A stretch of 64,000 nucleotides of DNA from Brachionus manjavacas (Eukaryota; Rotifera; Eurotatoria; Ploima; Brachionidae). Below the pieces are notes generated by a model. The model saw only the letters and a program-made list of their open reading frames with translations. It searched no databases and was not told the DNA's origin. Every line of letters starts with the position of its first letter. Position 1 is the stretch's first letter. Both the position numbers and the translations under genes were made by a program. This document shows positions 6,001-64,000 of this stretch, piece by piece. The stretch is taken from contig JAHQIY010000009.1 of assembly GCA_019054805.1 (NCBI GenBank), forward strand, positions 682,001 to 746,000, given 5' to 3'.

Positions 6001-9000
6001 AATTAAAAATAAACAAGTCTACATTGTCAAAGACCTCATTGGCAATGTCAATGTGGTAGATGGTTGCATGACTGCTGGATTTATTTTTGTAAAGTTTATC
6101 AAGAATTTTATCTGTATCTAGGGAAGTTGTTTTAATGCGGATTATGACATGATTGGAACTAGAGTGAAAATTGGGAATGGATCGCTTGAATGTTTCAACA
6201 TATGTTGATTTGCCATTTCCGGCCTGTTTGCTTAAGAGTGCTCGGACACTACTTTTATCAATGTCGTAGCTTGCCAAACTTAATGGAGATTTTGTGGTCA
6301 ATTTTAGCTTTACGTATTCATTTATTATGCGAGAATTCAGCGCTATTGGTTTCACGTTGTTTTTGGCAAATGATGAAGCGATTAGTGAATGCTCTGCACG
6401 GTCTGTGCTGCAAATACAAGCTATCACATATTCATCTGATTGACGTAAATTTGTTTTTGAAGATAAAAATTTTTCAATTCTACTCGAATTTTCGTATGTT
6501 AACTCCTGGATGTTGATCAAGGTGAATATTTTTTTACCATCAGACCGAAAGGCTATTCGGAAAAAGTTTTCAACCTTAGAAAAATTTTCAATAAATTATT
6601 AGAAAAACATTTTGACTTTAAATTTGTTTAAAGGTTGGAGAATTTTTTTTAGCTAACAGAACTCTGAAAATTGATTGCTTTGACAAAAAAAATTAAACTA
6701 AAAATCTAAATATTCAATGTTTCTCTAAAAGAGATATTTGAAATTCAATTGAGAATTGTAAGTTTTTTCAATTTTTTTTATTTTTTTGTTTGCTATAAAT
6801 CAAGAACATAAATTTAATAAACAAATTTGTTTATTTCTTTTTCACTTAATGAATTTATTTTAAATGACCTGATCATCAACATTAATATTTAATTGATAAA
6901 TTTTAATTTTGAGACATTTTAAATTTTTGCAGAAAAATATAATAGCAACTTTATTAAATTTAGATTAATTATTTTCTTTACTAGTCTAAATTTAGTTCAA
7001 GTGTCTAGTGAAAAATGAAAAACTATAAGAACTTCAAAGTGAGCCATAATTAGGCTTCTATTTCAAAAACTAAATCTGGAGAAGGGAAAAAACTGGAGCT
7101 GTTGTCTACATAATTCTTAAAAGTAATATCTTGTTGATTTTTAGATTTTGATTTGACCTATTGATCTAATAATAATATGAGTCTTTAAATATTTAAGTGT
7201 TTGTTACAGGATATTTGCGAAAGTGTGTATCTGCTTGTTTTTGCTGCAATTTACATTAATCATTTATCTAAATATTTGAAAAATCCCAATGGGTAAAAAT
7301 TATTTAACTCTCTTACATATTAAAACTCTTTTCAAAATAGATTATCACTTAATAGATAATAAAAAAAAGAAATTAGTGCTTTTTATCTATATTTAAAAAA
7401 ATAATCAAAATTAGTTAGATATTCAAAATTAAACTCTTTAATCTTCAATTTATATTTTAGATAAAGATATTTTATGAAATTGAAATAAAAAAAATTGAAT
7501 TTTTTATAATTTTTTACTAGAAAAATGCTTTGTAGATAAAAAAAATAAAAATATTTTGAAAAAAAAATTTTCTTAATCCATTGATAAAATTGATTTTTAA
7601 TTTATTAGACTGATTTTTTGGAGATAAATATTTGAATTTATTTTAATGCTAGATACTAATACTTTCGAAATAAAAAATTCAAAATAAACTTTAAAAAAAA
7701 ATCGGTTAATACATAAAAACATAAAAATCAATTTTATCAATGGATTAAGAAAATTGTTTTTTCAAAATTTTTTTATTTTCTGCATCTACATAGCATGTAA
7801 ATCAGGTTACATTAAAGCTATTTAAAAAAATCAAAGATGAATTTTAATATCTAAAGATAAACTCTTTTAATTGAAATGATATTTTGAATTGATCATCAGT
7901 TTCAAGATGCCAAAAATAAAGCATTCTAAAGATCCGATTTATCATTTAATAAAAGAGTGAGGTTTTCTTAAACTTAACTGACGAAAATGAAATAAATTCT
8001 CAGCCTCGTAATTTTATTACTCAAAGCCTTATTATAATTTAAAATTAGTTTTTTAAAATTAGATGAAAAATAAAAAAATAAAAAAATTTTTAAAAGTGTT
8101 ACAATTCAAAAAGAGAAACGATATAAACTTCAAAAATGAAATACATTTTTTCATATTTTTAATTGAATAAATAAGTTTGTCTTTGTCTTTTTTTATTAGT
8201 ATAGTTTTAAACTTCTATATTTAAAAACCTGAATAATAGTAAAAAAATATTACCTATTAGTAAAAATTAATATACTAAATTGATTATTAAAACTTAATAT
8301 CTTATATAAATATATTTTTTAAAAAAATAGAATATACCTACAATGACAAAAAAAGCGGTTAAGTTTTTTTTTTATTTTTAGTCAGTAACTTACAAAATAA
8401 ATAATAATTCTTACCTCTCATTGCTTTATAATTTTTTAGATAAACAATATTAAATCTCTACTTTAAAGATCTAAAAAAAAAGCAAATTTTAAAAAATGAA
8501 TGACAAAAATAATTTTTTTGACTCTTTGGACAAGTTAAATCAATTAGATATTTTCATTATACCATTTAATACAGAATAATTTTTAAATTAATATTAGATA
8601 ACAATAAAATGGCTGCGCAGTTTACAAAGAAAGCTGCTGAAAATTTGTCATTTTCAGCTCTCTTCTACTACTGCTAAAAAATTACAAAAAAAATTTTCAA
8701 GTAAACTTAGCAGTCATTAGAAAAACATAAAATAATTTTTTAATTTTAAATACCTCTTCAGCTGTTGTTTGAGAATTGCAAAATAGAACTTCATCATTGC
8801 TAGGAAGCGGAGCACTATGGGAATGGGCATAAATAGATAAAACAATTTCAACTTGGTCTCTCTGCTGATTGCACACAATCAAATTAGGCTTTCCTCTGTG
8901 AATCAAATAGCCAGGAATATCCCTGACAAAGTCCCTACTTTTGTTGCCTGATTGATATAATTCCTCCAAAAAAATAGCAAATCTTTCCATACTTAAATTA

Positions 9001-12000
9001 TTAGAGCTTGAATTGTTCTGTTTTTGGCTGAACTTTTCCAAAATTAGCTCTAATTTGTTGCCAAACGTTTGCTCAACCGACTCTTCATGATCACCTGCAT
9101 TTGATTCAATCATTTCTAAATTTCCATTTTGGTCATAGGTATCTGAGTCGTTTTCCAAGCAGTAACTAAGCAGCTCTTCGCCAAAATTTCCATACAGGTC
9201 GTAGGCTTCTTTAACCACTTGAACACTAAATCCATTATTTTGAGCATACAGCCTGATCTTTTCAAATTGTTCAGCTTTGTTCTTATCAATTTTCTTCTTA
9301 GTAAAAATTGTCTTGAATTTTAGACTTTTCGTTTTTTCTACCAGTCTCTTTACCACATCAACAAAAGAGTTTTTTTCAAAATCACTTCTGATATTGTAGA
9401 ACATTGAAGCTAATAGATCAAAATGAAAGTGGTCAATTTGTTGTTTGTCAAGTGCATTCTCGAGACATGATTTTATCAAAAGAATCTGGTTGACTGTAAA
9501 ATAGTTGATAAAGTGGTACTCGTCACGCACCATTTCGACATACTTGGTCCAAAGGTCAAAAAAATACTCCATTTTCGAGCAAATTTCACTCAGTATTTGC
9601 AAACTAGGCCTTTTGGCATCTGATATAGCAGTGTTCTGATTGAAAATTAGTTCAATTAAAGGTTGATTGTCCAAACGAGTATTGTTGCTGTCTGAGTAAA
9701 GATTCAACTTTAAATTGTTGAAAAAATCACAACCATTATTTCTCATGTTCAAAAAAATGTTTGCCAACCGGATACAGTTGTCGAATATATGAATAAAATA
9801 GTCCAAAGTATTGGCGTCCTCTTGGTCTTCGGCGGAATCGCTGGTTTTTTTAGTAAGCAAAACAAGTATGCTTTTAAGCTCATTTAATTTTTCAAAGTTA
9901 AATTTTTTCTGTTTTTGTGTGTTATTCACTTTGTTGACCATAGTCACATCCACTTGGATCATATCCTGAATGGACAAGTGCTTTGGCAACAGCTCAATTT
10001 GAAACAAACCATTTTCATTTATTTGTCTTGCTTGTTCGATGCTACTTAGCTCTACATTGCCTCTTTTTTTGTTTATGTCCTCTAGGACACCAACTTTGTC
10101 TTTTATTTCAACAAGCTTCTTGGCTATGTTGGCATCATTTTGCAGATTGTTCCAAACTGTGGCACAAAGCGCAACAAACTGCTCAAAGTTTGTGTCAGCA
10201 TTGATCTCAAAAATGAGCGGCGCATAAGCCGTAGTGGCTTCTTTGAACGCTTTGGCAAAAATGTTCTTATCAGTGCTGTTCTGAATTTCACTTGATTTTG
10301 TCAATGATATCAAGTCGACCAAAAATTTCAGCTCCTTCAGGTCTTTGACATTTTTTTGGATCCACTTGATAAGATCTTTGCATTCAACAAAAGCTCTCAG
10401 ACATTCTACTTTTTCCCCAGAGGAATACTTGTCCAATGTTCTGATCATCGACAGCACTCCATTGTCCATTTTGTTCAGGCAAAAATTTTCAAATTCATGA
10501 GATTTAAATTTTAAAAGCTCATTTAACTCGGCATAATTTTGTCTTATTCCGAATTCGCCGCACACCTGCCGAATCACCTCGGCTATTTTGTAGCATTCGC
10601 GGAATTTAAAATAAGTCTCAAGCTGAACCTTGGACTTTTCTTTATTAGGCTTGTTAAAATAGTCTATGATATAGACCAATTCTTTGAGACACTTTTTGAC
10701 ATTTTTATCAAAGTGAATATTCAGGTAGTCTTCCAGCTGTTTTAGCATTAGGTTTTCGGTGTCAATTGATTTGGCAAGTGAGTCCCAGTTTTGTAAAGCA
10801 TTGGGCAATACCTCTTCCAGGACTGTTTTTAGCTCGCATTTTTCTCTAAACGAATTGGCAAAAAAATGGTTGAAAATGACCAATTTAAGCTGATCGAGCT
10901 TCTGAATTCGGTCCATTTGAGTAAAATGTTCACTTCTTATTCCTTCAAAATAGGTTATCTTTGGCAATGGATCAGAAAATGCGTCATTTATGTCTATGGG
11001 CTGGCAAAATTGATTAATTCGATAGCATTGTTTATCTTTGGCACTTAAATCTTCCAACAGGGTTTTATAAGAGCCATAGGAAAAATTTTTAGACTTGGAG
11101 CAAAATTGTAAAAAAAAAACCAAGATGTTAATGCAATCGTTAAAGCGTAGCCACTCGTTTTTTCTAATTTTGATGAGATGTCTTATTTTGTCAAAGTGAA
11201 CTTTGTTCTTTGAGAAGGGACAATTTGGCTGCAAGTCAAAGACCATGTTAGCTAGAATTTGGAAGTTTTCTCTATGGTCGAACAAAAAATCAAACTTGCA
11301 AATTTCTATGCTTCCATCGATCAGCTCATTGACCACATTTTCAAATGATTGAAAAATTCTCTCAAATTGGTCTGTCCATTTCGGACTCAGAAACTTGTTT
11401 TCTTTTAGAATTTCTTCGAGTATAACCCTATATAAGTCACAAGTGAGAAAGATAGTGCATGGCTCATAAGTGATGGGAAATTTTTTTTCCAAAAATTTGT
11501 CCATCAAAGACTCAATTTGTTCCTGTTTGTCCAAAAATTCGCTAAAATGAGAAATGAGTTCATTTCTAGAAGCCAATTTTTCTATCAAATTATTTTCGAA
11601 TTCAGCTCGAATTTCTTTATTATTGAGCAGTGTGTCAAAATTGTAGTACAAGTAGATTTTGGCAACGTGGTCAAAACTGCTCTCTTTCAAGCGATCAGAC
11701 AAAATTTCAAGAATAAAATGAGTAAAATTTTTATCAACTAATTTTGTATTTTTAGATCTTATTGGAATACTTAACATCTGGTCAAACATAAATGGCTCAT
11801 TTTTGTTTGTTACTTCATTAGAGCCCAACTCATAATTGTCACATATTCTGCTGTTGCCAAGTTGATAAAAAAACCACTTCTTGATCAAGCTAAAAATATG
11901 GGCGGACTCGATTTCGCGTTCATTGGAATTTTTGGCTTTGGAATGGAATTTAATCAGACACAAATAGATCAATTCAACTTGAATTTCAAAATTGGAATTT

Positions 12001-15000
12001 CGATTTTCCACTAGAGACTTGAGCAAAAATAATTCAGCGTCAGGACTTTTAGATTCCAAAATTTTGTAGTTAAAATGGTTCATTGCTATTTTTATCAAGC
12101 AGCCAAGAATTCTAAGAAAAATCACCTAAAAAAAAAAATTATTTAAATGAAAACAATGATCTTGTCAATGGGACCAACTTTAGTTTTGGGCAAAAATTGC
12201 CTTGATTCAAAATCTGCCTGATATTTGTTCAGATAAAGTAAATACATGAGAAGCATATCGGCCGAAAGACAGTTAGAATCTAGCAGAGTTTGAAAATTTT
12301 TAGAACTAGAGTCACACAAATAGTGGATTAGTATGACAACATATTCTTTTTTGAACTCCAAGATCGGTTTATATTTCTGGACCAATTCTTCGAGTGTTCG
12401 TTCACTTAAAATAAAATTAGTGGTTATTTGGTTAATTGGCACTGATTTGCTTTTTAAAGATTAAGTTTTTTTGATAGACAAAAAATTCATAGTTTATCGA
12501 TTTTTTAAAAAAAAATGGCCATCAATTAATGGACTGACAAAAAAACTACATTTGATGACAAATAAATTAATTGACTGATAAAATACTTATTTGAGTGAAA
12601 AAAATACTTTTTGATTGATTAATTAAAAATAAATAATAATAATAATAATAATTAATTATTTTTACAAAACTTTAATGATTTTGAGGTTACAATAAAAATA
12701 AAAATCTTGAACTTTGGCACCAAAATCGGAAGTAAGTTTCAGACGATTATGACAAAACGTTTTGTCCAAATCTTATCATCAAGCTAGAGCCAATTATGAG
12801 ACAACGTCACAATTTAAGTTCATTCCTTACAATCTTAGAGAATGACATTATTAGATAGCTTAATTAGAACTAAAATAAATTAAAACCTATCTATAAAATA
12901 GGTTTTTTTTTAAAATAGGTTGTTGAAAAATTATTAAATAGTCATCTCAATATATATAAATTTGTCAGTTGTTTAGTTTTTTTATCAGAATAATTAGTTT
13001 TTTATAGTTAGCCAAAATAAATTAAATTAGTCAGCACTTTTAGTTATTTTTGTCGTCTTAAAAAAATTGAATTGGTCACCCCCAAAAAATTTAAGCCAAA
13101 TTAAATTAATTATTAATGATACTTGTAATCAATTAATAAAATTTTCCCAATAATTATTAGTACTTAAATAAATAAATTTAAGAAAACAGAATTTGAAATA
13201 AAATTTGAGTTCGTGAAAATAGTAAATTTTTGGACTTGGATAAAAATTGATAAGAAATTTGAAATTTTTTTTTGATTTAAAATTTGTATTAAATCGTTAA
13301 GGACTTGGAATTTTTTTATAAACATATCATAATTTGACATAGGAAAGAATTTATTTTTTAGTTTTGAAATTTCTTATCAATTCTTATTTCATCAAAATTT
13401 TGAAGTCGAAAAATTTATTTTTAATAGAAAGCAATAGTTTACTTTGTAAATGTGTTGTCAGAATGTGATTAAGTTACAAATAAATTCCATATAGCTTTTG
13501 TAGTACTCCCTACTGCAGTTTTATTTTATTATTTTTTAAAAAAAAATTTTCACTTATTAATCTAGTAGGACGACAGAAAGTTTATTTGAAAAAATGTTTC
13601 TAAATTATTGAATATCGAATTTGTTGATCAAAAAAATTGATGAATTTTTTTAACTCAAATTTAAATAATAAAAAAAATTAAGAAAAATAACCCTGGCACT
13701 TTCTTGTTTAGAAAATTCGAAAATGCTTTTTAGCATTATGCCTAACATTTTGCATTCTTATTTGATAAAATTAAAAAAAAGGAGTAAAAGATGAATTTTA
13801 TGTAATTTTCTATTAAAATCATTCCCTCTCAATTTCATATGAATTTTTTTTCTACGAATCTAAACATCTCTAATAATTTATTTTACTTTAAATCCTCAGT
13901 TATTGATCCAAATTTGATCACGATTTGAATGCAGTTATCAAAGTCAAATTTAGGTATAGAGATCTGGCTACTTTTTTCTAGCAAGTTGTAATAAAAGAAC
14001 AAAATAATAAGGGCTTCTTTGGATGGATTTTGTAGATTAAACTGCAAATATTTTTCGAACATATCACAAATTACACTTGAAAATGAAAAAAATAAAAATT
14101 ATTTTTGCTTAAAAATGTAAACCTACTGTTGCTGATCAGTAAAAAAATTAACAAAAATAACTCTAAAAAAATCAACACAAGTATTTTGCAGAGATCTAAG
14201 CAAAATTCTCATTTGATTTTCGTTTAAAATATTGTTTAAGTCATTATCTTGGCAAATAAATAAAGTTGTTAGAGCTAAAATTGTTTTGACATCTTGTGAT
14301 AATCTTCTGTTTTTATCTATTAATTTTATAACATTTTTCAAGGATTTTTCAAATTGCTAAAAAACAAAAAGTCAATTTCGGTAATCAAAATTTTAGAACA
14401 ACAAACCTCACGGAAATAATGTGTATATTCAGGGTCACAGCACAATTTTTGCTTAATTTTTCTTATCAGTGATAAAAAAAATTTATGCTCATTCAAAGGA
14501 TTATCAAAAAAAATTTCCAAAATTTGATCTAAATTTTCAATCATCGATTCTTTTTTCATTTTTTTAATCTTTGATTCCTCTAAATTTTGAAACAAAACTA
14601 AACCATCTATATGAGTAGAGCTTAATTGGTCTCTACTAGTATCTATAAAACGTAGCTTTTTATTGTCAATCAAATTTATCTCTTCCAAAATGTGAATTTT
14701 GTCATCTTTATTCTCAAGCAAATAATAATAATAACTAATTGGTGTATCAGTGTCAACTAATTCTTCGGGCAAAAACACAGAAATAGTTATGGATAGAATA
14801 TTTGAGCCAGTTTTTGTGCTGTCAATATGATGATAAATCAAAGCTCTTTGGCTATTTTGGTCATATAAGAAGCACACTCTTAAATTATTTAATATTTTGG
14901 GTTTTTTAGGAATTTCTAAATTCAAAAAGCATTTTTGGTAATCTTTTTGAGGCTTCGAAATGGGTCTAAAATTAAAAAAATTTTTAAAATTTTTTTAAAA

Positions 15001-40924: not shown

Positions 40925-42154
40925 TTAGCTTAAATGAAATATTTTAACAAAATTATCATTTGAAGCTGAATAAATAATTTTTGATTGTTCATTTAAACAA
41001 AAATCTAATATTTCAGCTTTGTGGCCCTTGTATGTTTTGCTAAGCTCCAAATTTCTTCCATCAAAATCTTGCAAACTTCCATCTAATGTTGAGGCATACA
41101 ATCTTTCCTGACTATTCCAAGCTATTTTCGAATAGCCGACCATACTGTTATCAAATTTTGATCTTAACACATTTGAATTAATATCCCAAATAAATATTTT
41201 ACCACTGAGAGTGGCACATGCGACCAATGGCAAAGTCTTGCAGAAAGAAACACTTTCGATCGAGTCCCGGTCTTCTTCCATAGCTTCGTCTTCTGATTCA
41301 GATTTGCTCTCACACAAAAGCTCACTAACAATCTTATAGTTGTTGGTGTTAATTAACTTTAGTTTCATATCTAGACCACCAGTTGCCAATAAATTTCCAT
41401 CAGGGCTCAAATCCATGGATAATATGTCACCTTGATGGGCATTTAACAAATTGTGCAATGTTTGTCCTGGTTTAATGTCCCAAAAGCGAATATTTCCATT
41501 GTTGTAAGCAGTTACTGCTCTTTTTCCATCTTTTAGGATTCTAAAACAGCCTAGTCCCACATCATCGCCCGAATACATAATTCGAATTTCTTCGCTTGAA
41601 AACTTAAACATGTAAAAATAGCCATCTGAAGTTGAACAAAACAGAATATTGCAGTTGGGGTGCCAGTCCAAGGATTCAATGTCAGTATCAAGATCATGTG
41701 TCCAATGTAGACTTTTGGCCTCCACGGTGTAAACACGAATCAAACCGGACATATCGCTAATGGCGACATATTTTCCATCATTGCTGAACTTGACATTGGT
41801 AACTGAGTCCTTAAATTTATCAGTTTTTATGAGTTCTTGGATATTTTTTGATTCGTGATCATATGAAAATACATAAGCCAAGTCATCTTCGCCTCCAGTA
41901 GCGAAAAAATTTTTGAAAGAGTCGATGCAGAAAACAGCACCATCGTGTTTTTCAATGGTCTCAATAGAATCATCTTGACCATCTTCTTCAGCTTCAAGTT
42001 CTTCGATTAAATCATCGATGTCTACTTCGACCAAGTCCTGGGCCAATTCGTCCTCTGGTTCTTCATATAAATCTTGTTCAATCACTTCTACTTCTTCTTC
42101 AGCAACCTCATTTTCATCCTCGATCGGATCATTTTTTTGAGTTTTTTCGGTCAT
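40925..42154 (-). CDS. AAMP: AAMP, angio-associated migratory cell protein (WD40 repeats)
   Basis: Single-exon frame of 409 residues from ATG 42154 (human about 434). The first 60 residues are strongly acidic (runs of Glu/Asp), as in AAMP. About seven WD40 blades follow: GGEDDLAYVF, ISDMSGLIRVY, STSDGYFYMF, KDGKRAVTAYNNGNIRFWDI, GGLDMKLKLI, ACATLSGKIFIWDI and the terminal HKAEILDFCLNE, which matches human. An acidic insertion (ESKSESEDEAMEE) lies in the same place as in human AAMP. Known roles include cell migration, receptor signalling and, for yeast Sqt1, chaperoning of ribosomal protein uL16. The lack of introns contrasts with the neighbours. Confidence 0.95.
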   Translation of the reverse strand: MTEKTQKNDPIEDENEVAEEEVEVIEQDLYEEPEDELAQDLVEVDIDDLIEELEAEEDGQDDSIETIEKHDGAVFCIDSFKNFFATGGEDDLAYVFSYDHESKNIQELIKTDKFKDSVTNVKFSNDGKYVAISDMSGLIRVYTVEAKSLHWTHDLDTDIESLDWHPNCNILFCSTSDGYFYMFKFSSEEIRIMYSGDDVGLGCFRILKDGKRAVTAYNNGNIRFWDIKPGQTLHNLLNAHQGDILSMDLSPDGNLLATGGLDMKLKLINTNNYKIVSELLCESKSESEDEAMEEDRDSIESVSFCKTLPLVACATLSGKIFIWDINSNVLRSKFDNSMVGYSKIAWNSQERLYASTLDGSLQDFDGRNLELSKTYKGHKAEILDFCLNEQSKIIYSASNDNFVKIFHLS

Positions 42155-42917
42155 TTTTTTTTATTAAAATAGCTTTAACAATTTTAACTATTGTCTTTTA
42201 ATAAAAGTGTTAGATTAAATTCAATTTAAAATTTATTAAAATTAACGATTAAGCAACACGGGAAAATTTATAATGAAAAAATAAAATTTACTTAACTTTT
42301 TAGCAAATTTACCTCACGTTTTTTATTTTTATTCAAAATTTTAAATTTTTAATATTAAAATTATTAAGCATAAAATGATTTTTTGATTTTGTTTCGAAAA
42401 AAATTACTTTAAATCCCTTATTAAAATTAATGAATATAAATCAAAAAATTAAACAAAAATTTACTGAAGAATTAAGTCTTAAATTTTGTCAATATTTGTA
42501 ACAGCTGTACTACTATTATCTGTTTTTACCAAAATTTATGTTCTTTCATTCAAATATTCTCTTGTCAATTATCTAAATAATTTTTGGAAAGTTTTTAAAT
42601 TTTATATTCGTAATTATTTAAAAAAAATTACTTCAATTTGCGGAATTTTCATGAAAAGACCATAAAATTAAGCTTTTAAAAAACCAATTTGCTTTCATTT
42701 TCTTTAAAAATCAATTTAAGTAATTTGATAATTTTAATCATTATATTAAAAATTAAACGGAGTCCGGGGCGGAGCCCTGGTTTATCAATTTGAGTATGCT
42801 GAAAGTAAGAGAAAAATTATTTAGAAATTTAAAACTAATATCTTAAATATTCATTAATTAGAATCTTTTTTTAGTTATCAAAAAAGTACAAAAAGTACAG
42901 AAAGGATAATTTTATTA
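42155..42917. other. AAMP upstream region with an isolated GC-rich palindrome
   Basis: AT-rich. At 42758-42780 a 23-bp GC-rich block contains CCGGGGCGGAGCCCTGG, an imperfect palindrome, in otherwise A/T DNA. No gene seen. Confidence 0.45.
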
Positions 42918-46985: not shown

Positions 46986-47585
46986 CTATATCTTAACCTT
47001 TTGTTTTTTTTGTTAAAAATTATATTTAATAAAAATTTGATAAGAAAAATTTTCTATTTTATTTGATATGCTTTAATTTAATTGAATCTAGTTGTAGTCA
47101 AAGACAATACTTTATAAACAAATCGAATTGCTCTAACTTTGAGTCAACTACCACCCTCAGTAATTCATGCTAAAACAATTCATTAACAATTAATACAATC
47201 TCTATAAATATTATCAATTAGATCATCAATTTATTAATATAAAAAATAACCCTTTGGAGGTAGATATTCAGTTTTTGACTAACCATTTTAATCTTCATTT
47301 TGCTCACGTTAAATATTGACAATTATTGACTTTTATTTGTGAATAAAAAGATCTTTGATTTTTGATTTTTGTGTTTTACATTTTCTATATTTTATTTTAC
47401 TTCTCTTGGTGGGAGGTTAGTTAAATTCAAATAAATAAATAAATTTAAAAAAAAGCCAAATATTTTAAAGTAGAAGACAAAAATTTAATAGAAATTTGGC
47501 AATTTCCAGGTCGTTTACCAATAGTCAATTGACCAAGTCTAAAATTAATTTTTGAATTTAAAAATTTAGCTTTTATTATGAAATG
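46986..47585. other. Intergenic before the LINE
   Basis: AT-rich, with an AAATAAATAAATAAAT run near 47430 that may be the tail of another decayed copy. No gene seen. Confidence 0.4.
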
Positions 47586-48740
47586 GACTAGGTGAGAAAA
47601 TAGTAAGTTGGCTCGAAGACTTTTTGAGTATGAGAACTCAGCGAGTTGTACTTGGAGATGGAGTTTCTAGATGGTCAGAGGTACTGAGTGGAGTTCCACA
47701 AGGATCTGTACTTGGACCCCTGCTATTTGTTTTGTACATAAATGACCTACTTGACTGCGTTTCAAATAAAATGGAATTGTATGCAGATGACTCAAAAATA
47801 CTTGGTATAGTTAATAATGTTTATGAGAGAGCGATGTTACAGAAAGATCTGGATGCAGTATGTCAATGGATAGAGGTTTGGCGTATGGGACTTTGTGCTA
47901 ACAAATGTAAAGTAATGCATTTCGGCAGACTAAATGAAAGGCATAAATATACACAAAAAAGCAACAGGAATGTTATACTAGCGACCACAGATTGTGAAAG
48001 GGATCTTGGAGTGATGGTTTCATCAGATTTGAAGTGGACCAGCCAAGTGAAAAGTGCTTGTGCGAAAGCGAGTAGGGTGCTTGGAATGCTAAAGCGAACG
48101 TTTACAAGTAGAGAGGAAAGACTGTGGGTAAGATTGTATATATCCATGGTGAGACCCCACCTAGATTACGCAGTGCAGGTTTGGAATCCAAGTATGAAAA
48201 TGGACGTGAATGCGTTGGAAAAGGTGCAAGAGAGGGCAACAAAAATACCTTTGTCTGTAAGAAACATGCCGTATGAAAAGAGGCTGACAAAATTAGGACT
48301 GACAAAGCTGAGTGAAAGAAGAGTGAGAGGGGACTTGATTGAAATGTACAAACTAGTGAATGGAATAGAAAAGGTAAGCTTGGTCAAGAATCTAGTGAAT
48401 AAATCAGAAAACAAGGGACCAGCCGGGGCGTTAAGAGGAAATAGCATCAGAGTCCAGAGAGAAAGTTTCCCAGCTAAAATTAGAAACGATTTTGCGGCTG
48501 CAGTAAATGCCAGACATGTATTTTTCTCAAACAGAGTAGTTCCGCATTGGAATAGGTTGCCAGAAAACGTGGTGAAATCCAAGTCAACCGCTAATTTTAA
48601 AATGGCTTTAGATAAGTTCAATGGAATCGGCTGCTACAGCTCTACACGGCCAATTGGCGGTGATGGGCTTAGACAATCTACATGTTAGGTGTCGCAGCAA
48701 GAACTACTACTACTACTAAATGCTCATTTTATTTTGCTAA
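47586..48740 (+). mobile_element. 5'-truncated non-LTR retrotransposon (jockey/CR1-like LINE)
   Basis: Contains the 3' part of the polymerase ORF and the 3' tail. Coding homology begins abruptly at GLGEKIVSWLEDF (about 47590), so the endonuclease and first half of the RT are missing. The tail after the stop has a (CTA)n tract and TAAATGCTCATTTT. The same tail, reversed, occurs at 45016-45150. The long intact frame suggests a recent insertion. Confidence 0.9.
47624..48688 (+). CDS. LINE reverse transcriptase, C-terminal half
   Basis: 354 residues from the first in-frame ATG; the true frame runs from about 47590. RT motifs: SGVPQGSVLGPLLFVLYIND (motif 4 region), MELYADDSKI with the catalytic YADD, then NKCKVMHFGR and LGVMVSSDLKWTSQV. 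The thumb region follows: YISMVRPHLDYAVQVWNPS, EKVQERATKIPLSVRNMPYE and RRVRGDLIEMYKLVNGIE. It ends with FSNRVVPHWNRLPENVV, typical of CR1/jockey-like LINEs. No stop interrupts it. It is more GC-rich than its surroundings, as expected of a recently arrived element. Confidence 0.92.
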   Translation: MSMRTQRVVLGDGVSRWSEVLSGVPQGSVLGPLLFVLYINDLLDCVSNKMELYADDSKILGIVNNVYERAMLQKDLDAVCQWIEVWRMGLCANKCKVMHFGRLNERHKYTQKSNRNVILATTDCERDLGVMVSSDLKWTSQVKSACAKASRVLGMLKRTFTSREERLWVRLYISMVRPHLDYAVQVWNPSMKMDVNALEKVQERATKIPLSVRNMPYEKRLTKLGLTKLSERRVRGDLIEMYKLVNGIEKVSLVKNLVNKSENKGPAGALRGNSIRVQRESFPAKIRNDFAAAVNARHVFFSNRVVPHWNRLPENVVKSKSTANFKMALDKFNGIGCYSSTRPIGGDGLRQSTC

Positions 48741-52942: not shown

Positions 52943-53644
52943 TTAGTCTCTTCTTAATTTAAAATGCTCTGTTACTACACCATCTTTGGTAATTACATTA
53001 ATGAAGACGGCATCGCCGGTGTAGATGTCGCGCTCGGTTGCCGAAGTGTAAATATCTTTGATCAAGGCAACCACATCTTCTTTGCTCATTTTAACAGTGT
53101 ATGAGCGGTTCAGCTCGAATGAACCTTGATTTTTTAGCCCAAGCTGCGAGTCTAGCAAAGGCTGGATCAATGCGGCAGAAGAGCCTCCAGCTCTGTACAC
53201 TTCTCTCTCGTAACTTCCCACTGGGTCGTAGCTGTAAACACATCCTTGGCCATCGTTTGTCAAACCGGCGATAATTGTGTTTACGTAGTATGGGAAAAAT
53301 CTTCGGTTATACAACATGGTCGATACTAGCTGGGCTACTGCTGGTGTACTTGCTTTCTTGTTGTTCTCATATTCGTACATTCTGAGTCTAATTTGAAGGG
53401 TCTTGTTGAATGTTATGCAGTCACCGTGAAAGCCGACAGAACCCATGACTGTTTTGGGCAATACTTGGTATAAATGCGGGTTGTCGCGGCTTAGAATTGA
53501 GTATCCCTCGCTGAGCCGCGTGTCTGATGCAATCACGGCAAAGTCTTCGCCAGCTACGCCGACAATTGTGCCACCGTTCATTTCATATGGGTTGAAGCGG
53601 TGTTCAGTCGGCTGCTGAGCGCTACTTGGTCTAATTTCGAACAT
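52943..53644 (-). CDS. PSMB1: 20S proteasome subunit beta type-1 (beta6)
   Basis: Non-catalytic beta6 subunit of the 20S core particle, part of both beta rings. Single-exon frame of 233 residues from ATG 53644 (human 241). Matches include RFNPYEMNGGTIVGVAGEDF, ASDTRLSEGYSI, GFHGDCITFNKTLQ, YNRRFFPYYVNTIIAGL, YSYDPVGSYERE, RAGGSSAALIQPLLDSQLG and ATERDIYTGDAVFI, the last near the C-terminus as in human. The N-terminal 20 residues form a short propeptide-like leader. AATAAA on the minus strand near 52862 follows the stop. The FTSJ3 start is 189 bp downstream. Confidence 0.96.
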   Translation of the reverse strand: MFEIRPSSAQQPTEHRFNPYEMNGGTIVGVAGEDFAVIASDTRLSEGYSILSRDNPHLYQVLPKTVMGSVGFHGDCITFNKTLQIRLRMYEYENNKKASTPAVAQLVSTMLYNRRFFPYYVNTIIAGLTNDGQGCVYSYDPVGSYEREVYRAGGSSAALIQPLLDSQLGLKNQGSFELNRSYTVKMSKEDVVALIKDIYTSATERDIYTGDAVFINVITKDGVVTEHFKLRRD

Positions 53645-54025
53645 TGTTTGGCTGGTTGAAAAATTTGGATGAATTTTAAATAAATTTTATTTTTTTGTTA
53701 ATAGTAGAGAAAAATAGACGAATGTATGTAAAATATTATTCAATTCAAATTAGCACTAGTCATTTAAAAGAGAAAATTTTTTAAATTTTATTTTTTGAGC
53801 ACATTTTAATTTGCATTTTTTTTCTTTCTCAAAAAGCATGCAAGTTTAGTTTTTGATGTTAGATGTAGTTAAATTTTTGCAATTTTTTTTGCAATTTTGT
53901 TATTTTTTGCACTTAATTTTTTGTATCTACTCAATTTATGTCTGACGAAAAAATAAAAATTAACTTTTTTTTGCGGTATTTAAATGCTGAAATTTAATCG
54001 AACTTCAAATGATCTTTTGAATAAT

Positions 54026-55287: not shown

Positions 55288-55406
55288 GCCTAGGACCATA
55301 TCACGTTGAATACACCGGTTCTCGTCCGATCACCGAAGTTAAGCAACGTCGAGCCCGGTTAGTACTTGGATGGGTGACCGCCTGGGAATACCGGGTGTTC
55401 TAGGCT
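55288..55406 (+). rRNA. 5S ribosomal RNA
   Basis: About 119 nt, from GCCTAGGACCATATCACG to GTGTTCTAGGCT, followed by a T-run, the RNA polymerase III terminator. Contains the universal core ACACCGGTTCTCGTCCGATC, GAAGTTAAGCAACGTCGAG and GATGGGTGACCGCCTGGGAA with the internal A box/IE/C box. The terminal helix pairs (GCCTAGGAC with GTTCTAGGC), including compensated changes relative to common metazoan 5S, so it is probably functional. Confidence 0.96.
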
Positions 55407-55744: not shown

Positions 55745-55863
55745 AGCCTAGAACACCCGGTATTCCCAGGCGGTCACCCATCCAAGTACTAACCGGGCTC
55801 GACGTTGCTTAACTTCGGTGATCGGACGAGAACCGGTGTATTCAACGTGATATGGTCCTAGGC
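55745..55863 (-). rRNA. 5S ribosomal RNA, inverted identical copy
   Basis: Reverse complement is identical to the 55288 copy over all 118 bases compared, again followed by a T-run (A-run on plus, 55737-55745). The two genes face each other and end 340 bp apart. The upstream flanks match for about 100 bp (ATTTAATTAAAAAGAGAGTT just upstream), so both have the same external promoter sequence. Confidence 0.96.
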
Positions 55864-56831: not shown

Positions 56832-57366
56832 CTCTATAATAGTGTTGGGGGGCGGCCAACTTTGGCCGGCCGGTCTACGGCCGGACTTGAACGGCCAGTT
56901 GGCCGGCCACTATAAACGGCCTATTTTAGCCGTGAATTTAACGGCCGCAATTTTGACCGTCCGTGAATTGGCCGGCCGTCTGTGGACCGTTTTTAAAAAG
57001 GCCGACCTTTTCAGGGCCGGCCAACTGACAGACCGACCATGAAATGGCCGGCCAAATTTTAGAAGACCGTGTGGTGGCCGGCCGAGTATCGGCCAAATAA
57101 AAAACCGACCGTGAAGTGGCGGGCCAGCTGAAAGGCCGTTAAACGGCCGACCGTGTGCAGACCGGCCGGCCACAAAACGGTCCAAAAAAAAAATTTTACG
57201 TAGATGATTAAAAAAATTTAAAGACATTAAAATTTGCATTTATTATTTATCAAATATTCTGAATAAGCTAATTTTTAATTATTACCTCATTTTTTTCCGA
57301 TATTTTTCAGAAATCCTTAAATTATATATATTAATTTTGAATTCTGAATTTTAGTTATTTTTTTAA

Positions 57367-57767: not shown

Positions 57768-59258
57768 TTAATTAAAATGTTTTATGTTTTCATATAAAAA
57801 CATTATGGCCTCAACTTTTTCAGGAGATATTTTATTTCGTCTATCCCATACTTGATAATTTGCTTTCGAAAATAATCTTTCTGATGGTGAACTTGTTGCT
57901 GGTGCAATAGCATAGTTGACGAAAAATTCGTGAAGAATTGGATTTTTATATTTGTTTAAATTCCAAAAATCTACTGCACTATCGAATTTAGCTTCAAATA
58001 CATAATTATTTATTTCCTTTTTTGCAGCTCTCCAATTTATCTCAACATTGTTTTCCTCATCAGATGAGTCGCTTAATTGAAATCTTTTCGAGTCAGTTAA
58101 AGAGTTTTGGTTTTCTGAACTTCGTTTGCTTGTATCATTTTTTATATCCCTAAAGTCCCTTACCTTTATCCGAATAAAATCTTCGACTTTTTTTACAAAT
58201 TTTTTTTTTTGATCTGATGCTGCTGCTGAGAATTTCTTGTACTTAGGATGCAAAAAAGATGCAATAAAAAAATAGTCGTTTTCAAAAATTTCGTATTTTT
58301 TTTGATAAAAATGAATATAATTATTGAACATTTCTTTTAAGTCTGCTTTTATTTCATTGTCTTCTGGATAGGGAGTTGTCAATTTAAATAATGATACAAA
58401 AATTGGAATAACTAGACAAAGAGTCATATCTTTTTCGTTTGACAGCTGACAAGTAATATCGAAAAAAGGTTTAAGTATATCCAAAGAAGCTTTTAGAACG
58501 TCGATTTCGGCACTTTTTAACTGAAGATGCTTGTATTTACGATCGTTTGAGAAAATTACATTTATAAATTCTGAATTTTCTACAATTCTTTCCACCATTA
58601 AATAAGTCGAGTTCCATCGAGTTGGCACCTGTTGAATGATTGAGTGAACTGGTTTTTGACTTTCATTTTGCATATTTGCCAATTTTTCTTTCATTGTTGT
58701 TGAATGATTGTAGTGCGTTGCAATTGAACAACATTTTTTTAAGAGCTAATTAAAAAAAATATTAGATTATTTATTTTTTTTAAATGAAAGAAAATTACAA
58801 TAATTGAATAAGTTTAAAGCATTTGAATTTGTTTCGAAAGAAGCATCCAATCTTGATTTCAAATTTTCTGTCTCTGTTAAAGGAACCTTTTCAGTTAAGT
58901 GAATTTGTTCGGATTGAGATAAAAATAGTGATTCAGAATCAGAGTTTGTATCAATTGTCAACCTACTATTTCTACTGATAAATTTTAATGTATTTGTGAC
59001 TATTAGATGCAAAATGTGGGCAATGCAAGGGATTCGATTTATGTTCAAAAGCTCAGACATTCTTATCATGCTATTCACATTATCAGTTGTAATTGCTTTG
59101 ATTTTATTAATAATATTATAATCGTTGAAAATTTATAATATTGTCTCTTTCATGTTTTGAGAAGAATGTTCACCAATTATGTAACTTGACAACAATATAT
59201 TACTTAACTTAAAATTCTCATCCAAAAAATGCGCAGTTACACCAATGTATGAAAATAA
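57768..59258 (-). CDS. hAT transposase, C-terminal portion (defective)
   Basis: Exons 59258-58799 and 58745-57768 with a 53-nt intron. Exon 1 begins right after TTTTAG at the edge of the right inverted repeat and has the RNase-H-fold segment SYIGVTAHFLDENFKL, KAITTDNVNSM and RIPCIAHILHLIV; one in-frame TAA follows KETIL. Exon 2 has VPTRWNSTYLMVERIV, a spacer with SFLHPKYKKF, and the C-terminal dimerisation domain FWNLNKYKNPILHEF, APATSSPSERLFSKA, LYENIKHFN. The N-terminal BED zinc finger and first catalytic Asp region are absent. Loss of a DNA-binding end plus the stop means it cannot act alone. Confidence 0.88.
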
Positions 59259-59673
59259 CTAAAATTCAGAATTCAAAATTAATATATATAATTTAAGGAT
59301 TTCTGAAAAATATCGGAAAAAAATGAGGTAATAATTAAAAATTAGCTTATTCAGAATATTTGATAAATAATAAATGCAAATTTTAATGTCTTTAAATTTT
59401 TTTAATCATCTACGTAAAATTTTTTTTTTGGACCGTTTTGTGGCCGGCCGGTCTGCACACGGTCGGCCGTTTAACGGCCTTTCAGCTGGCCGGCCACCAC
59501 ACGGTCTTCTAAAATTTGGCCGGCCATTTCACGGTCGGTCCGTCAGTTGGCCGCGGCTTGGCCGGCCATTCACGGTCATTGGCCGTTTTTTGGCCGCCTG
59601 CACCTCCGGCCACGGTCTCGGCCATTTTTTTTTCTGGCCGGCCACATGGCCTCTCGACCGGCCCCCAACACTA

Positions 59674-60634: not shown

Positions 60635-62362
60635 ACGATCAGTTAATATATGTAATCAGATATGGTATCAGCTGAAGGTCGGGTACAAACCTAATGCTTG
60701 AACTGTTTTCAAAATATGAGGCACTGTAAAAAAAACCGAAAAGTAAGAAAATTGATGTAGTCACAAAATATTCCAAAGTAAATTATAATAAATACAAAAT
60801 CAGTTAAAATTCAAAAGACGAAATTAAATAAATAAAAAAAGATAAAATTATATCTAAATCATTATTTGAAATGTTTTTATGAAATGGGAAAACAAATATT
60901 AAATGTTAACGTGTGAATATATGTTTAGTTTGGACTCTATTGGATTTCCTTAGCGATCCTTAATTTTGTATTATTATTATATTTTTTATTCTTCAATTTT
61001 CATTCTGCAATTAAAATGGATGTAAAAAAGAGTTGTTTTGTGATGTTAGTTTTCTTTGTAAATAAAGATATTAATTCTAAATCAGTCTTTTGACATTATT
61101 AGCTATGACTAAAACCCAGTCAATTAAAATTTGATGGAGCATCAATGAAAAAAAAAAATTAATCGAATTTTCATCGATGAGTAGTGAGCAGATTCATAAT
61201 GTTTCATCGATGAAAAATATAAATTTCATCGGTTTTTCATTATTTCAATAAATTTTTTTTTCACCGAATTGAAATAAATTTAAAAGTAATTTATCAATTT
61301 TTAATTCTTTATTTTAATTTGATTTTTAAAACATTTATGAAAAAAATAATAAAATACTCAAGCCTGTTTAAAAAAATTTATCATTAAAAAACAAAAAATT
61401 AATTTAATTACTTTTTAAATTAAATATGCTATTTTTATATAATTTTAGAAAAAAAAAATTATAACTAATATTATTAAACATAAACTGTTAAAAAATTGTA
61501 GTTAATGGTTTCTCATCATTTAACAATAATTTTAAAGCTCTCTTTGCCGAATTGTACTACTTATTAAAGGCGGCATCGCTAGTCGTGTGATCTTGCTTTT
61601 TTGAGTTATTGAATTTGTCTCAACTAGACCAGAGCTTGTCGACAACCTCAATAGTCCAGGTATTCGATTCGGATTTATCATTAGGTCCGTAACTCATTTT
61701 TTTTCGAATCCTATTTCTCTAATAATTTAGGTTAATCTAAAAAAAAATAATTAATTAAATTAATTAATTGAGTAAAGTCTAATTTGTCAGAAAAAAAGAA
61801 GGTAGTTTTTTGTCATGATAATAATCATTATATTTTGGCCAGGCTTGTTTTTAAGTCACAAGTTTAAGTTTAAGTCATTTTAATATTAAATATGTGAAAG
61901 GAGTTTTTTAACCCAGAGCCATTTATTTTAAATATTAAATTTACTATTAAAAAAGTGAGTAAGGCACTTTATATCATTTGATTGAAACTATAAAAATATT
62001 TTCTTTAAAATAAAACGGTAATTTTTTTTGTCAAATTTCACAATTTGGATTGCTATAGTTAAATTTAATAATTATATTAAATTATATATTAATTATATTT
62101 TTAAGATTAATATTTTGTAATAGATGAAATAACTAAATAATAATTCATGACAATTCAGGAAAAATCTATAAATTATTTTTCTATTTTATTTTAAATAGAC
62201 TCCAATGCTTTTGAAAAAAAGCGATTAATAGACAAAATGAAATTTAAATAATATTTTTTGAAATTTTTATTAAAAAAATAATTTATTACTTGTGATTAGT
62301 CAATAAAGAATAATATTATAAAAAATAATTAATGGAATAAGTGGTTTTTATTGAGTGTTCTA

Positions 62363-63409
62363 TTATTTGAATTCAATTTTTGCAATCACTTTATCGTTAT
62401 ATTTTGGCAATACTTGAGAGTCATCAGTGATCTCTTGAAAAACAACACAATCCTCTTCTAACAAATCTGTCTTTGTTTTGAAGAAATATCTAAAATCACC
62501 ACGTTTGGTGATCAAATTTTTGAACTGGGCCAAACAAAGCTTTTTTCCAGTAAAGTTAGTCAAATAAGCAAGACTCTCTCCGGGCATGTAATAAGCAACA
62601 GTTGTTCTTTGTACCTCTGATACATGCTTTTCTTCTTTTGTAGCTTGACACACTGACTGGTTTGACCTTGACTTGGAAGACTTGATTCTAGACACGTGAT
62701 CCAAATGGGCATCAAGTTGGTGATCGATATTTGAAGAGTTTGTGTTCAATTTTTCCAACTGAAAAGTCAAGTCATTTAAGTTAGATGCTAAATTTCTGTC
62801 TTCGGTCCTCTTCACTTTTCTTAGGCTAGAATTGGTAGATTTTTTAGACCTTCTTGTCTCGAAAAGAGACTGAGTTTCGCAGTTTTTTGGTGGCTTAGCG
62901 GCTTTAGTCTTGACATGGTACGGATTTGGAATTTGATTCAGACTAAGAGATGAACCAGATTTATTGCCCAAAGCACTGGAAGTCGAAGCGGAAACTGAAG
63001 AAGAAGCAGCTCGGCTTTTGTTCACGCTCCGGTCATGTTTAAGTTCGTATTTGACATATTCTCTTTCCAGAACTTTCTTTATTCTGGCATTAACTTGCTC
63101 CAAAATAGCCTCATTGTAAACGCCAGACTTTAGACTATCGCTGAGTTTGACCGATAGGTCGCCACCGAGAATTTTCTCTAATTCATGTTCGTGCTTTAGT
63201 ATGCAAGTTTTGTAGGTGGTGTCAAAGATGTGCTTGAGTCTTAGCGGATCGGTTTTGTTCTGGGTCTTGAAGCAGCGTAAGATTAGATAAAGTGTGAGCA
63301 GGTTTTGAATGGTGCTGCTGTTGGTGAGGGTTTTGATGTAGTCGAAAAACTCCCTTCGGTTAACGTCTACATGAAGAAACATGTCTAAGTCAGTGCAATT
63401 TTCAGACAT
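62363..63409 (-). CDS. AXIN: Short Axin-like protein (RGS + DIX domains)
   Basis: Axin scaffolds the beta-catenin destruction complex of Wnt signalling. Single-exon frame of 348 residues from ATG 63409, under half the length of human AXIN1 (862). Residues about 8-125 read as a diverged RGS domain (the APC-binding part): NRREFFDYIKTL, NLLTLYLILRCFKTQ, IFDTTYKTCILKHEHE, VLEREYVKYEL. Residues about 268-348 are a clear DIX polymerisation domain: TTVAYYMPGESLAYLTNFTG, AQFKNLITKRGDFRYFFK, EEDCVVFQEI, VLPKYNDKVIAKIE. The 130-residue linker is Ser/Lys-rich, and I see no convincing GSK3- or beta-catenin-binding helix. AATAAA lies just after the stop. No intron is needed. Confidence 0.88.
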   Translation of the reverse strand: MSENCTDLDMFLHVDVNRREFFDYIKTLTNSSTIQNLLTLYLILRCFKTQNKTDPLRLKHIFDTTYKTCILKHEHELEKILGGDLSVKLSDSLKSGVYNEAILEQVNARIKKVLEREYVKYELKHDRSVNKSRAASSSVSASTSSALGNKSGSSLSLNQIPNPYHVKTKAAKPPKNCETQSLFETRRSKKSTNSSLRKVKRTEDRNLASNLNDLTFQLEKLNTNSSNIDHQLDAHLDHVSRIKSSKSRSNQSVCQATKEEKHVSEVQRTTVAYYMPGESLAYLTNFTGKKLCLAQFKNLITKRGDFRYFFKTKTDLLEEDCVVFQEITDDSQVLPKYNDKVIAKIEFK

Positions 63410-64000
63410 TTTTGCAAAATTATCTAGAGTTGAAAATTGTATTTTATAATTTAAATATTAGAGCTAAATGACCTTGAACTTTTATATGATGAAAATTGTT
63501 AATTGGCTAAGTGGTCTCAGTTGGCCACGCCTAGCAAGTTCAAACCGAAAAATTATTTTGTATGCTAGCCGACTGCAGATGAAAAGAGTCGACAATCAAA
63601 GCTAAATATGCAGAAGCGGTTAAAAGTTTAAGATGAAGGGGGCTGGCCGAGGGAATTATGATGCTTAGTTTGATTGTAGAAGCGAACAGCGCGCTCTATT
63701 TTTATATCATCTTGTTTATCATTAATTGAATCTAATTTGTACATGAGTCGAACCAAATGGGATTAAAATAGCTGTGCGCAAATATTTTCTTAGTACTTGG
63801 TTGCCACTTGACACTTAGGAAAATCTGTTATTTGTATTTTTTAATTAATTCCAAGACAATTGGTTGTCAAGTGAGTGTTAACATCTTCACTTGTTTTCAA
63901 CATTCGAATTGTCACAACGAGCTATGAGTGCAAACAACTAATTTCGAAACAAATCTACTATCAGGCTTTATTTAATTTTTTGAATAAACTAATTACAAAG
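63410..64000. promoter_or_regulatory. Axin-like upstream region
   Basis: Less AT-rich than typical intergenic DNA here. A TGGCTAAGTGG / AGTTCAAACCG pair near 63500-63548 resembles Pol III A and B boxes but is too closely spaced for a tRNA. No coding region seen to the window edge. Confidence 0.4.

Follow-up and report, generated by a model that had tools for sequence, protein, structure and literature searches.

A short second Axin of the rotifer Brachionus manjavacas, with an Axin-type DIX domain and no detectable GSK3-helix motif

Is a 348-residue protein that ends in a DIX domain the Axin of Brachionus manjavacas, stripped of most of its binding sites, or is it a second Axin that stands beside a fuller one? 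The open frame in question lies near the end of a stretch of 64,000 nucleotides (contig JAHQIY010000009.1, positions 682,001 to 746,000 of the forward strand), which we call the window, and its product is called Axin-b below. An earlier note on this DNA had described it as a miniature Axin lacking recognisable GSK3 and beta-catenin sites, and had proposed either a rewired destruction complex in this lineage or a second, specialised Axin/DIX adaptor. No description of the gene, and no title on a rotifer Axin, was found among open-licence papers. The features of the locus are listed here, all of them on the reverse strand; C25 is the contig that carries the fuller Axin.

62347..62352, reverse strand: AATAAA, a polyadenylation-signal-like hexamer directly 3' of the Axin-b stop, read by eye
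62363..63409, reverse strand: Axin-b coding sequence of 348 amino acids from the list of open reading frames, a single uninterrupted frame known from DNA alone
62375..62605, reverse strand: DIX domain, residues 269-345 (Pfam PF00778, E 2e-19; PDB Axin-1 1wsp, 2.3e-16)
62684..62734, reverse strand: beta-catenin-binding-helix-like motif SNIDHQLDAHLDHVSRI, residues 226-242, from motif scoring
62744..62800, reverse strand: predicted helix, residues 204-222, at the place expected for the GSK3 helix, with no significant GSK3 motif
62900..62962, reverse strand: SLSLN..PNPYxVxTK block, residues 150-170, common to the C25 Axin and collinear with it
63038..63409, reverse strand: diverged, putatively RGS-derived N-terminus, residues 1-124, 43% identical to the N-terminus of the C25 Axin
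63424..63425, reverse strand: AG of an acceptor-like CTCTAG, 14 nt 5' of the Axin-b ATG, a candidate cis or trans acceptor, read by eye

The frame is open for 348 codons, or 364 from stop to stop, and the chance of its staying open, calculated from base composition only, is about 7e-11; we use "single exon" for Axin-b in the sense of one continuous open frame. Pairwise alignment shows that its start coincides with the MS- start of the C25 Axin. The GC content at third codon positions is 0.41 in Axin-b and 0.73 in the C25 gene, with an overall GC content of 0.27 in the window. No copy of the rotifer spliced-leader word was found, which is weak evidence. Frames that look retroelement-like by eye adjoin both Axin genes (L038:1841-2629; L039:2943-3896).

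Elsewhere in the window there are two very long reverse-strand frames, at 2792-6595 (1267 codons) and 8697-12125 (1142 codons). The first has AAA ATPase matches in Pfam, and we take it, by eye, to resemble the RNF213-type giant proteins. Neighbouring genes encode a WD40-repeat protein (40925-42160, reverse strand) and a proteasome subunit (52943-53686, reverse strand; Pfam 6.6e-36), and a reverse-transcriptase frame is found at 47582-48688 on the forward strand (Pfam RVT_1, 2.6e-12). Two full-length 5S rRNA genes of 115.2 bits each, at 55288-55406 (forward) and 55745-55863 (reverse), run in opposite directions within an inverted repeat of 257 nt with 95% complementarity. A second inverted repeat, with 255-nt arms at 57107-57361 and 59252-59506, flanks a hAT-type transposase frame (57768-58694; Pfam 6.6e-11); since the arms around this frame are 99% complementary, a fairly recent hAT-related insertion is suggested.

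The C-terminus of Axin-b is a DIX domain of Axin type, and the earlier description of it as strong is borne out by the Pfam E value of 2e-19. DIX is the sole significant Pfam domain in the protein, and among solved structures its best relative is Axin-1 (2.3e-16), ahead of DVL-2 (3.7e-5) and Dixin-A (4.1e-4). The PDZ and DEP domains that mark Dishevelled are not reported by Pfam in Axin-b, and its DIX is closer to Axin-1 than to DVL; nor does the protein match the Ccd1/DIXDC1 group, its DIX again being closer to Axin-1 than to Dixin. There is a weak match to the CENP-F leucine zipper (E 0.57 for the whole protein and 0.04 as a fragment), and Axin-b may contain a coiled coil.

A six-frame search of the genome (114 Mb in 61 contigs; E limit 0.001) gave four DIX matches: a Dishevelled-type domain on contig C3, a separate gene on C7 in which the DIX stretch sits beside coiled-coil-like sequence, Axin-b itself, and the Axin on C25. 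The last of these (Axin-a, P0001; L003:1474-3075) is a single frame of 533 residues. Pfam reports both RGS (2.4e-12) and DIX (9.1e-19) in it, above their cut-offs; on motif scoring its GSK3 helix is clear, and a motif for the beta-catenin helix is present as well. When Axin-b was used as the genome query, with E values up to 10, four places were returned, namely itself, two stretches on C25 and, weakly, the DIX of Dishevelled. The two C25 stretches cover residues 1-124 and 157-346 of Axin-b and are its only strong match elsewhere in the genome. The proteins are collinear through the N-terminus, the PNPY block, the beta-catenin motif and the DIX domain, with 71% identity over 79 DIX residues and 43% over 124 N-terminal residues. 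Judged from this alignment, Axin-b shares descent with an undoubted Axin. That Axin-b is the only Axin of the genome is rejected by the presence of the fuller one on C25, which is what the genome search recommended in the earlier note was meant to find. Of the proposal of a second, specialised adaptor, "second" is confirmed, whereas "specialised" is something that we infer.

Between the two copies dN is 0.23 in the DIX domain, 0.54 in the RGS region and 0.74 in the linker, where the alignment is unreliable. The corresponding dS values are infinite, 2.2 and infinite; synonymous sites are saturated or nearly so, and therefore only amino-acid change is informative, in a comparison that comes from one genome and gives neither the time of duplication nor the selection on each branch. 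The two DIX domains are identical to that of Axin-1 at 36 and 38 of 77 residues, which is about equal, and 24 DIX sites differ between the copies, with the Axin-1 state at 3 and 5 of these. Because both are about equally close to Axin-1, the DIX of Axin-b does not look relaxed.

The N-terminus had been described as RGS-like. Pfam did not report an RGS domain for Axin-b, either for the whole protein or for residues 1-130 (hmmscan with a limit of E 10, although HMMER's filters discard most matches weaker than about 0.1). A profile of four other RGS-region translations from the same genome gave no match to Axin-b (probability 0.5%, run without a positive control), and a profile from a two-row alignment matched the Axin RGS at a non-significant E value of 0.071. 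Modelled by AlphaFold from the single sequence, residues 1-130 come out entirely helical, in a model of poor quality (pLDDT 55). With that model, Foldseek placed 1emu, the RGS/SAMP structure of Axin, sixth among 61 matches (E 3.1, TM 0.47), which is only a hint of an RGS fold. Even the C25 RGS is not specially Axin-like, since in the PDB search RGS1 (1.3e-4) came ahead of Axin (2.7e-4). As the direct tests on Axin-b fail, the case for RGS homology runs through the C25 paralog, with its 43% identity over 124 residues and its own RGS match of 2.4e-12, and by this route the N-terminus probably descends from an RGS domain. The earlier note had held that failure of the RGS profile would count against its reading; the profile does fail, but probable descent through the paralog rescues the homology.

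The linker of Axin-b (residues 125-268) had been estimated at about 130 Ser/Lys-rich residues and measures 144, with 19% Ser and 10% Lys; that of the C25 Axin has 324 residues. Axin peptides for the two partners (GSK3 letters from PMC8786283, beta-catenin letters from PMC8048981), together with segments of the C25 Axin, were scored against the linkers in eight tests with 20,000 shuffles each. The GSK3 peptide reached a best score of only 8 in Axin-b, equalled by 13,176 of the 20,000 shuffles, compared with 31 in the C25 Axin (segment ADPKKFFDLVASKLEAY; 28 of 20,000 shuffles as good). Gapped alignment of the Axin-b linker did not improve matters, with 763 of 3,000 shuffles as good against the peptide and 2,562 of 3,000 against the C25 GSK3 region, and the C25 GSK3 segment scored 0 against the Axin-b linker, a value that 19,151 of 20,000 shuffles equalled. 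Nothing in Axin-b aligns with the GSK3 stretch of the C25 Axin. When the part of the C25 Axin that spans its GSK3 and beta-catenin sites was searched against the PDB, the sole match was to an unrelated adhesin (E 0.4). Judged by sequence motifs, a GSK3-binding helix is not detectable in Axin-b, and to this extent the claim of missing GSK3 sites stands. The single-sequence model does predict a helix at residues 195-245, with a pLDDT of about 70-77 over residues 201-240, in a model that is poor overall (pLDDT 48).

The beta-catenin peptide scored 24 in Axin-b (124 of 20,000 shuffles as good, a modest result for one of eight tests) and 25 in the C25 Axin (267 of 20,000). When the segments are compared directly, QLDAHLDHV of Axin-b against QLDEHLDRV of the C25 Axin scores 35, with 2 of 20,000 shuffles as good, for a segment that was tested after the pairwise alignment had shown it (19.6 bits, E 0.19). 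Pfam PF08833 (Axin_b-cat_bind) is the only family reported in the C25 fragment, with an E value of 0.041 and 14.2 bits where its cut-off is 23 bits, and is unreported for the Axin-b fragment; over the genome this profile found nothing, and the controls gave nothing either. On motif scoring Axin-b seems to keep a beta-catenin site, and the claim that it lacks such sites is probably wrong. The stricter view, that there is no beta-catenin-like site whatever, is rejected by the QLDAHLDHV motif. Whether the motif binds is unsure, because Axin-b reads LDAH in place of LDEH, and because Ser stands at the position of Phe253 in the signalling beta-catenin of this genome, described below.

The linkers also share the PNPY block. 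Its 12-residue PNPY segment scores 31 (4 of 20,000 shuffles as good); for the SLSLN 9-mer the collinear match is second-best (21) and the best lies elsewhere (23; 355 of 20,000 shuffles). The PNPYxVxTK block is possibly a remnant of the LRP6-interacting region, because it falls where that region, with its tandem prolines, would be placed following PMC12095580.

Partners for an Axin were sought in the same genome. A beta-catenin stretch on contig C4, used as query with E values up to 0.1, matched seven places: C4 itself, C5 (5.5e-51), C1:4669375 (4.2e-16), and four weaker ones (5.3e-5 to 0.031). A further candidate, C1:8902085, was rejected as a beta-catenin; it reads as another armadillo-repeat gene, presumably ARMC3-like. 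There are then three beta-catenin relatives: an adhesion-type gene with introns on C4, a signalling-type gene with a degron-like ESGYSTQAPSISS on C5, and a shorter one-frame gene on C1. The C4 gene (L035/L040) has a beta-catenin match of 7e-103, apparent introns and an N-terminal motif of alpha-catenin type; roughly 4 kb downstream lies an open frame ending in WFDTDL, which is taken as part of it. No DSGxxS-like motif is present in its first exons as read, or in L041; one such match lies upstream on the strand of the gene (L040), within sequence that recurs at other loci, and a DNA pattern for an Asp-Ser-Gly codon run has 2 matches in L040 against 1.76 expected, which is uninformative. The C5 gene (L043:1432-3561) encodes 697 residues in a single frame and matches beta-catenin at 1e-113; close to its start it has TESGYSTQAPSISS, which we read as degron-like. 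The C1 gene (L044:2783-4234), also a single frame, encodes 465 residues and matches beta-catenin at 4e-35, and is closer to C5 (34% over 355 residues) than to the 346-residue C4 stretch (25% over 249). Its open frame lacks a degron-like region and, at E 0.01, draws no Arm repeat from Pfam. The positions aligned to F253, H260, K292 and K312 are Ser/His/Lys/Lys in C5, Ser/His/Ser/Lys in C1 and Phe/His/Lys/Lys in C4, so that one cannot be sure that C1, or even C5, binds Axin. The APC profiles SAMP, APC_rep and Arm_APC_u3 gave 0 matches each in the genome; no control genome had a true APC, and for this reason we do not claim that APC is absent.

The reading that we favour, with a probability of roughly 0.45, is that Axin-b is a lineage-specific Axin duplicate acting as a DIX-dependent modulator. 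Its DIX domain would let it enter polymers of Axin-a and of Dishevelled, where it may weakly hold beta-catenin; GSK3 would not be recruited through the known helix, and APC perhaps not at all. Since it would bring no GSK3 in this way, each incorporated Axin-b would dilute the density of kinase and so lower or tune the phosphorylation of beta-catenin, as a natural interfering subunit. With a fuller Axin in the genome, the GSK3 dock unrecognisable and the beta-catenin site seemingly kept, Axin-b looks like a specialised partner, and the motif scores of the two copies favour this reading, being alike for beta-catenin (24 and 25) and far apart for GSK3 (31 against 8). The DIX that does not look relaxed, the intact frame and a third-codon GC above the overall GC of the window (0.41 against 0.27) count on the same side, the higher third-codon GC of the C25 copy (0.73) on the other. 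A missing motif is no proof of missing binding, however, because nematode Axins take part in the destruction complex without obvious sites for GSK3 or beta-catenin and AXL-1 binds GSK-3 (PMC6956378). The main rival, which we consider possible but rather doubtful, is a working Axin like AXL-1 that recruits GSK3 and beta-catenin by diverged contacts and shares duty with Axin-a in certain tissues. PRY-1 and AXL-1 of Caenorhabditis elegans function without obvious GSK3 or beta-catenin regions (PMC6956378), the highly divergent Axins of tapeworms come with evidence of canonical function in Echinococcus multilocularis, and axin2 of Hymenolepis diminuta is highly tissue-specific (both PMC12582415); the helix predicted at residues 195-245 would also suit such contacts. 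Against this, the C25 Axin retains a clear GSK3 helix (28 of 20,000 shuffles), and the Axin-b linker, less than half the length of its counterpart (144 against 324 residues), has nothing aligned to the C25 GSK3 stretch, from which the loss of the GSK3 site looks specific.

An adaptor independent of beta-catenin, capping or bridging Dishevelled/Axin polymers for polarity, JNK or AMPK output, seems unlikely: it would fit a protein in which DIX is the best-kept part and RGS has passed beyond profile recognition, but the closeness of QLDAHLDHV to the paralog (2 of 20,000 shuffles) argues that the contact is kept or was lost only recently. We think it more improbable still that Axin-b is a decaying duplicate on its way to a pseudogene, as the fast divergence of the RGS region and linker and a third-codon GC below that of the C25 copy might suggest, given 348 open codons, a start that matches the MS- of the paralog, a polyadenylation-like AATAAA after the stop, and a DIX about as near to Axin-1 as that of the C25 copy. 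The acceptor-like CTCTAG 14 nt before the ATG could point to an incomplete gene model in which further exons carry the missing sites. This we regard as very improbable indeed, since the frame is free of stops from the N-terminus through the DIX domain and its start coincides with that of the paralog, and exons spliced into this continuous frame would be the one possible source of sites in the region from RGS to DIX. Returning to Axin-b as a modulator, one elaboration pairs it with the C1 gene: a mini-Axin without a GSK3 dock and a mini-beta-catenin without a degron-like region might form a GSK3-free side module able to sense or tether but not to destroy. In both cases a shorter gene in a single frame has a fuller relative that is a single frame too, a parallel that is suggestive only, and we hold the module itself to be a long shot.

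Compared with vertebrate AXIN1 and AXIN2, Axin-b has a DIX of the same type and the same order of putatively RGS-derived region, beta-catenin-like motif and DIX, but it is far shorter, has no detected GSK3 helix and has an RGS region unrecognised by profile. The vertebrate proteins carry an extension before the RGS domain; Axin-b, in contrast, has little or nothing ahead of its RGS-derived region. Planarians have an Axin pair, axinA and axinB. Divergent second Axins are already documented in C. elegans and flatworms. As in this rotifer, the C. elegans genome has two divergent Axins, AXL-1 and PRY-1, conserved chiefly in RGS and DIX (PMC6956378), whereas here a clear GSK3 helix and the beta-catenin motif are kept by the C25 copy, and the former has been lost by the shorter one at the level of motifs. 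According to the same paper, AXL-1 binds GSK-3 and Dishevelled proteins and not the APC protein APR-1; its binding to GSK-3 is experimental. Tapeworms have two divergent Axins (AXIN1/AXIN2) beside three beta-catenins (PMC12582415, citing Montagne et al. 2019), a pair that we liken to the rotifer one by description and not residue by residue, and on this source the high divergence that the earlier note ascribed to planarian Axins holds, among flatworms, for tapeworms. In glass sponges the beta-catenin region of Axin is not predicted (PMC5684314). Planarians have split signalling from adhesion beta-catenins, and their C-terminally truncated beta-catenin3/4 inhibit Wnt signalling (PMC5643146). 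The C1 gene resembles these in being a truncated relative beside full ones, but the planarian proteins keep N-terminal GSK3 sites and the C1 open frame has no such region.

Because the genome holds a fuller Axin as well as a beta-catenin of signalling type that carries a degron-like motif, Axin-b gives no support to the proposal of a rewired destruction complex in this lineage, and for the same reason the view that the canonical complex is kept in bilaterians is not overturned. If our preferred reading of Axin-b as a modulator is true, the pair would be a natural experiment in the subdivision of an essential scaffold, with kinase docking retained by one Axin and polymerisation, perhaps along with the binding of cargo, by the other, and it would offer a test in a living animal of whether the density of kinase in DIX polymers sets the turnover of beta-catenin.
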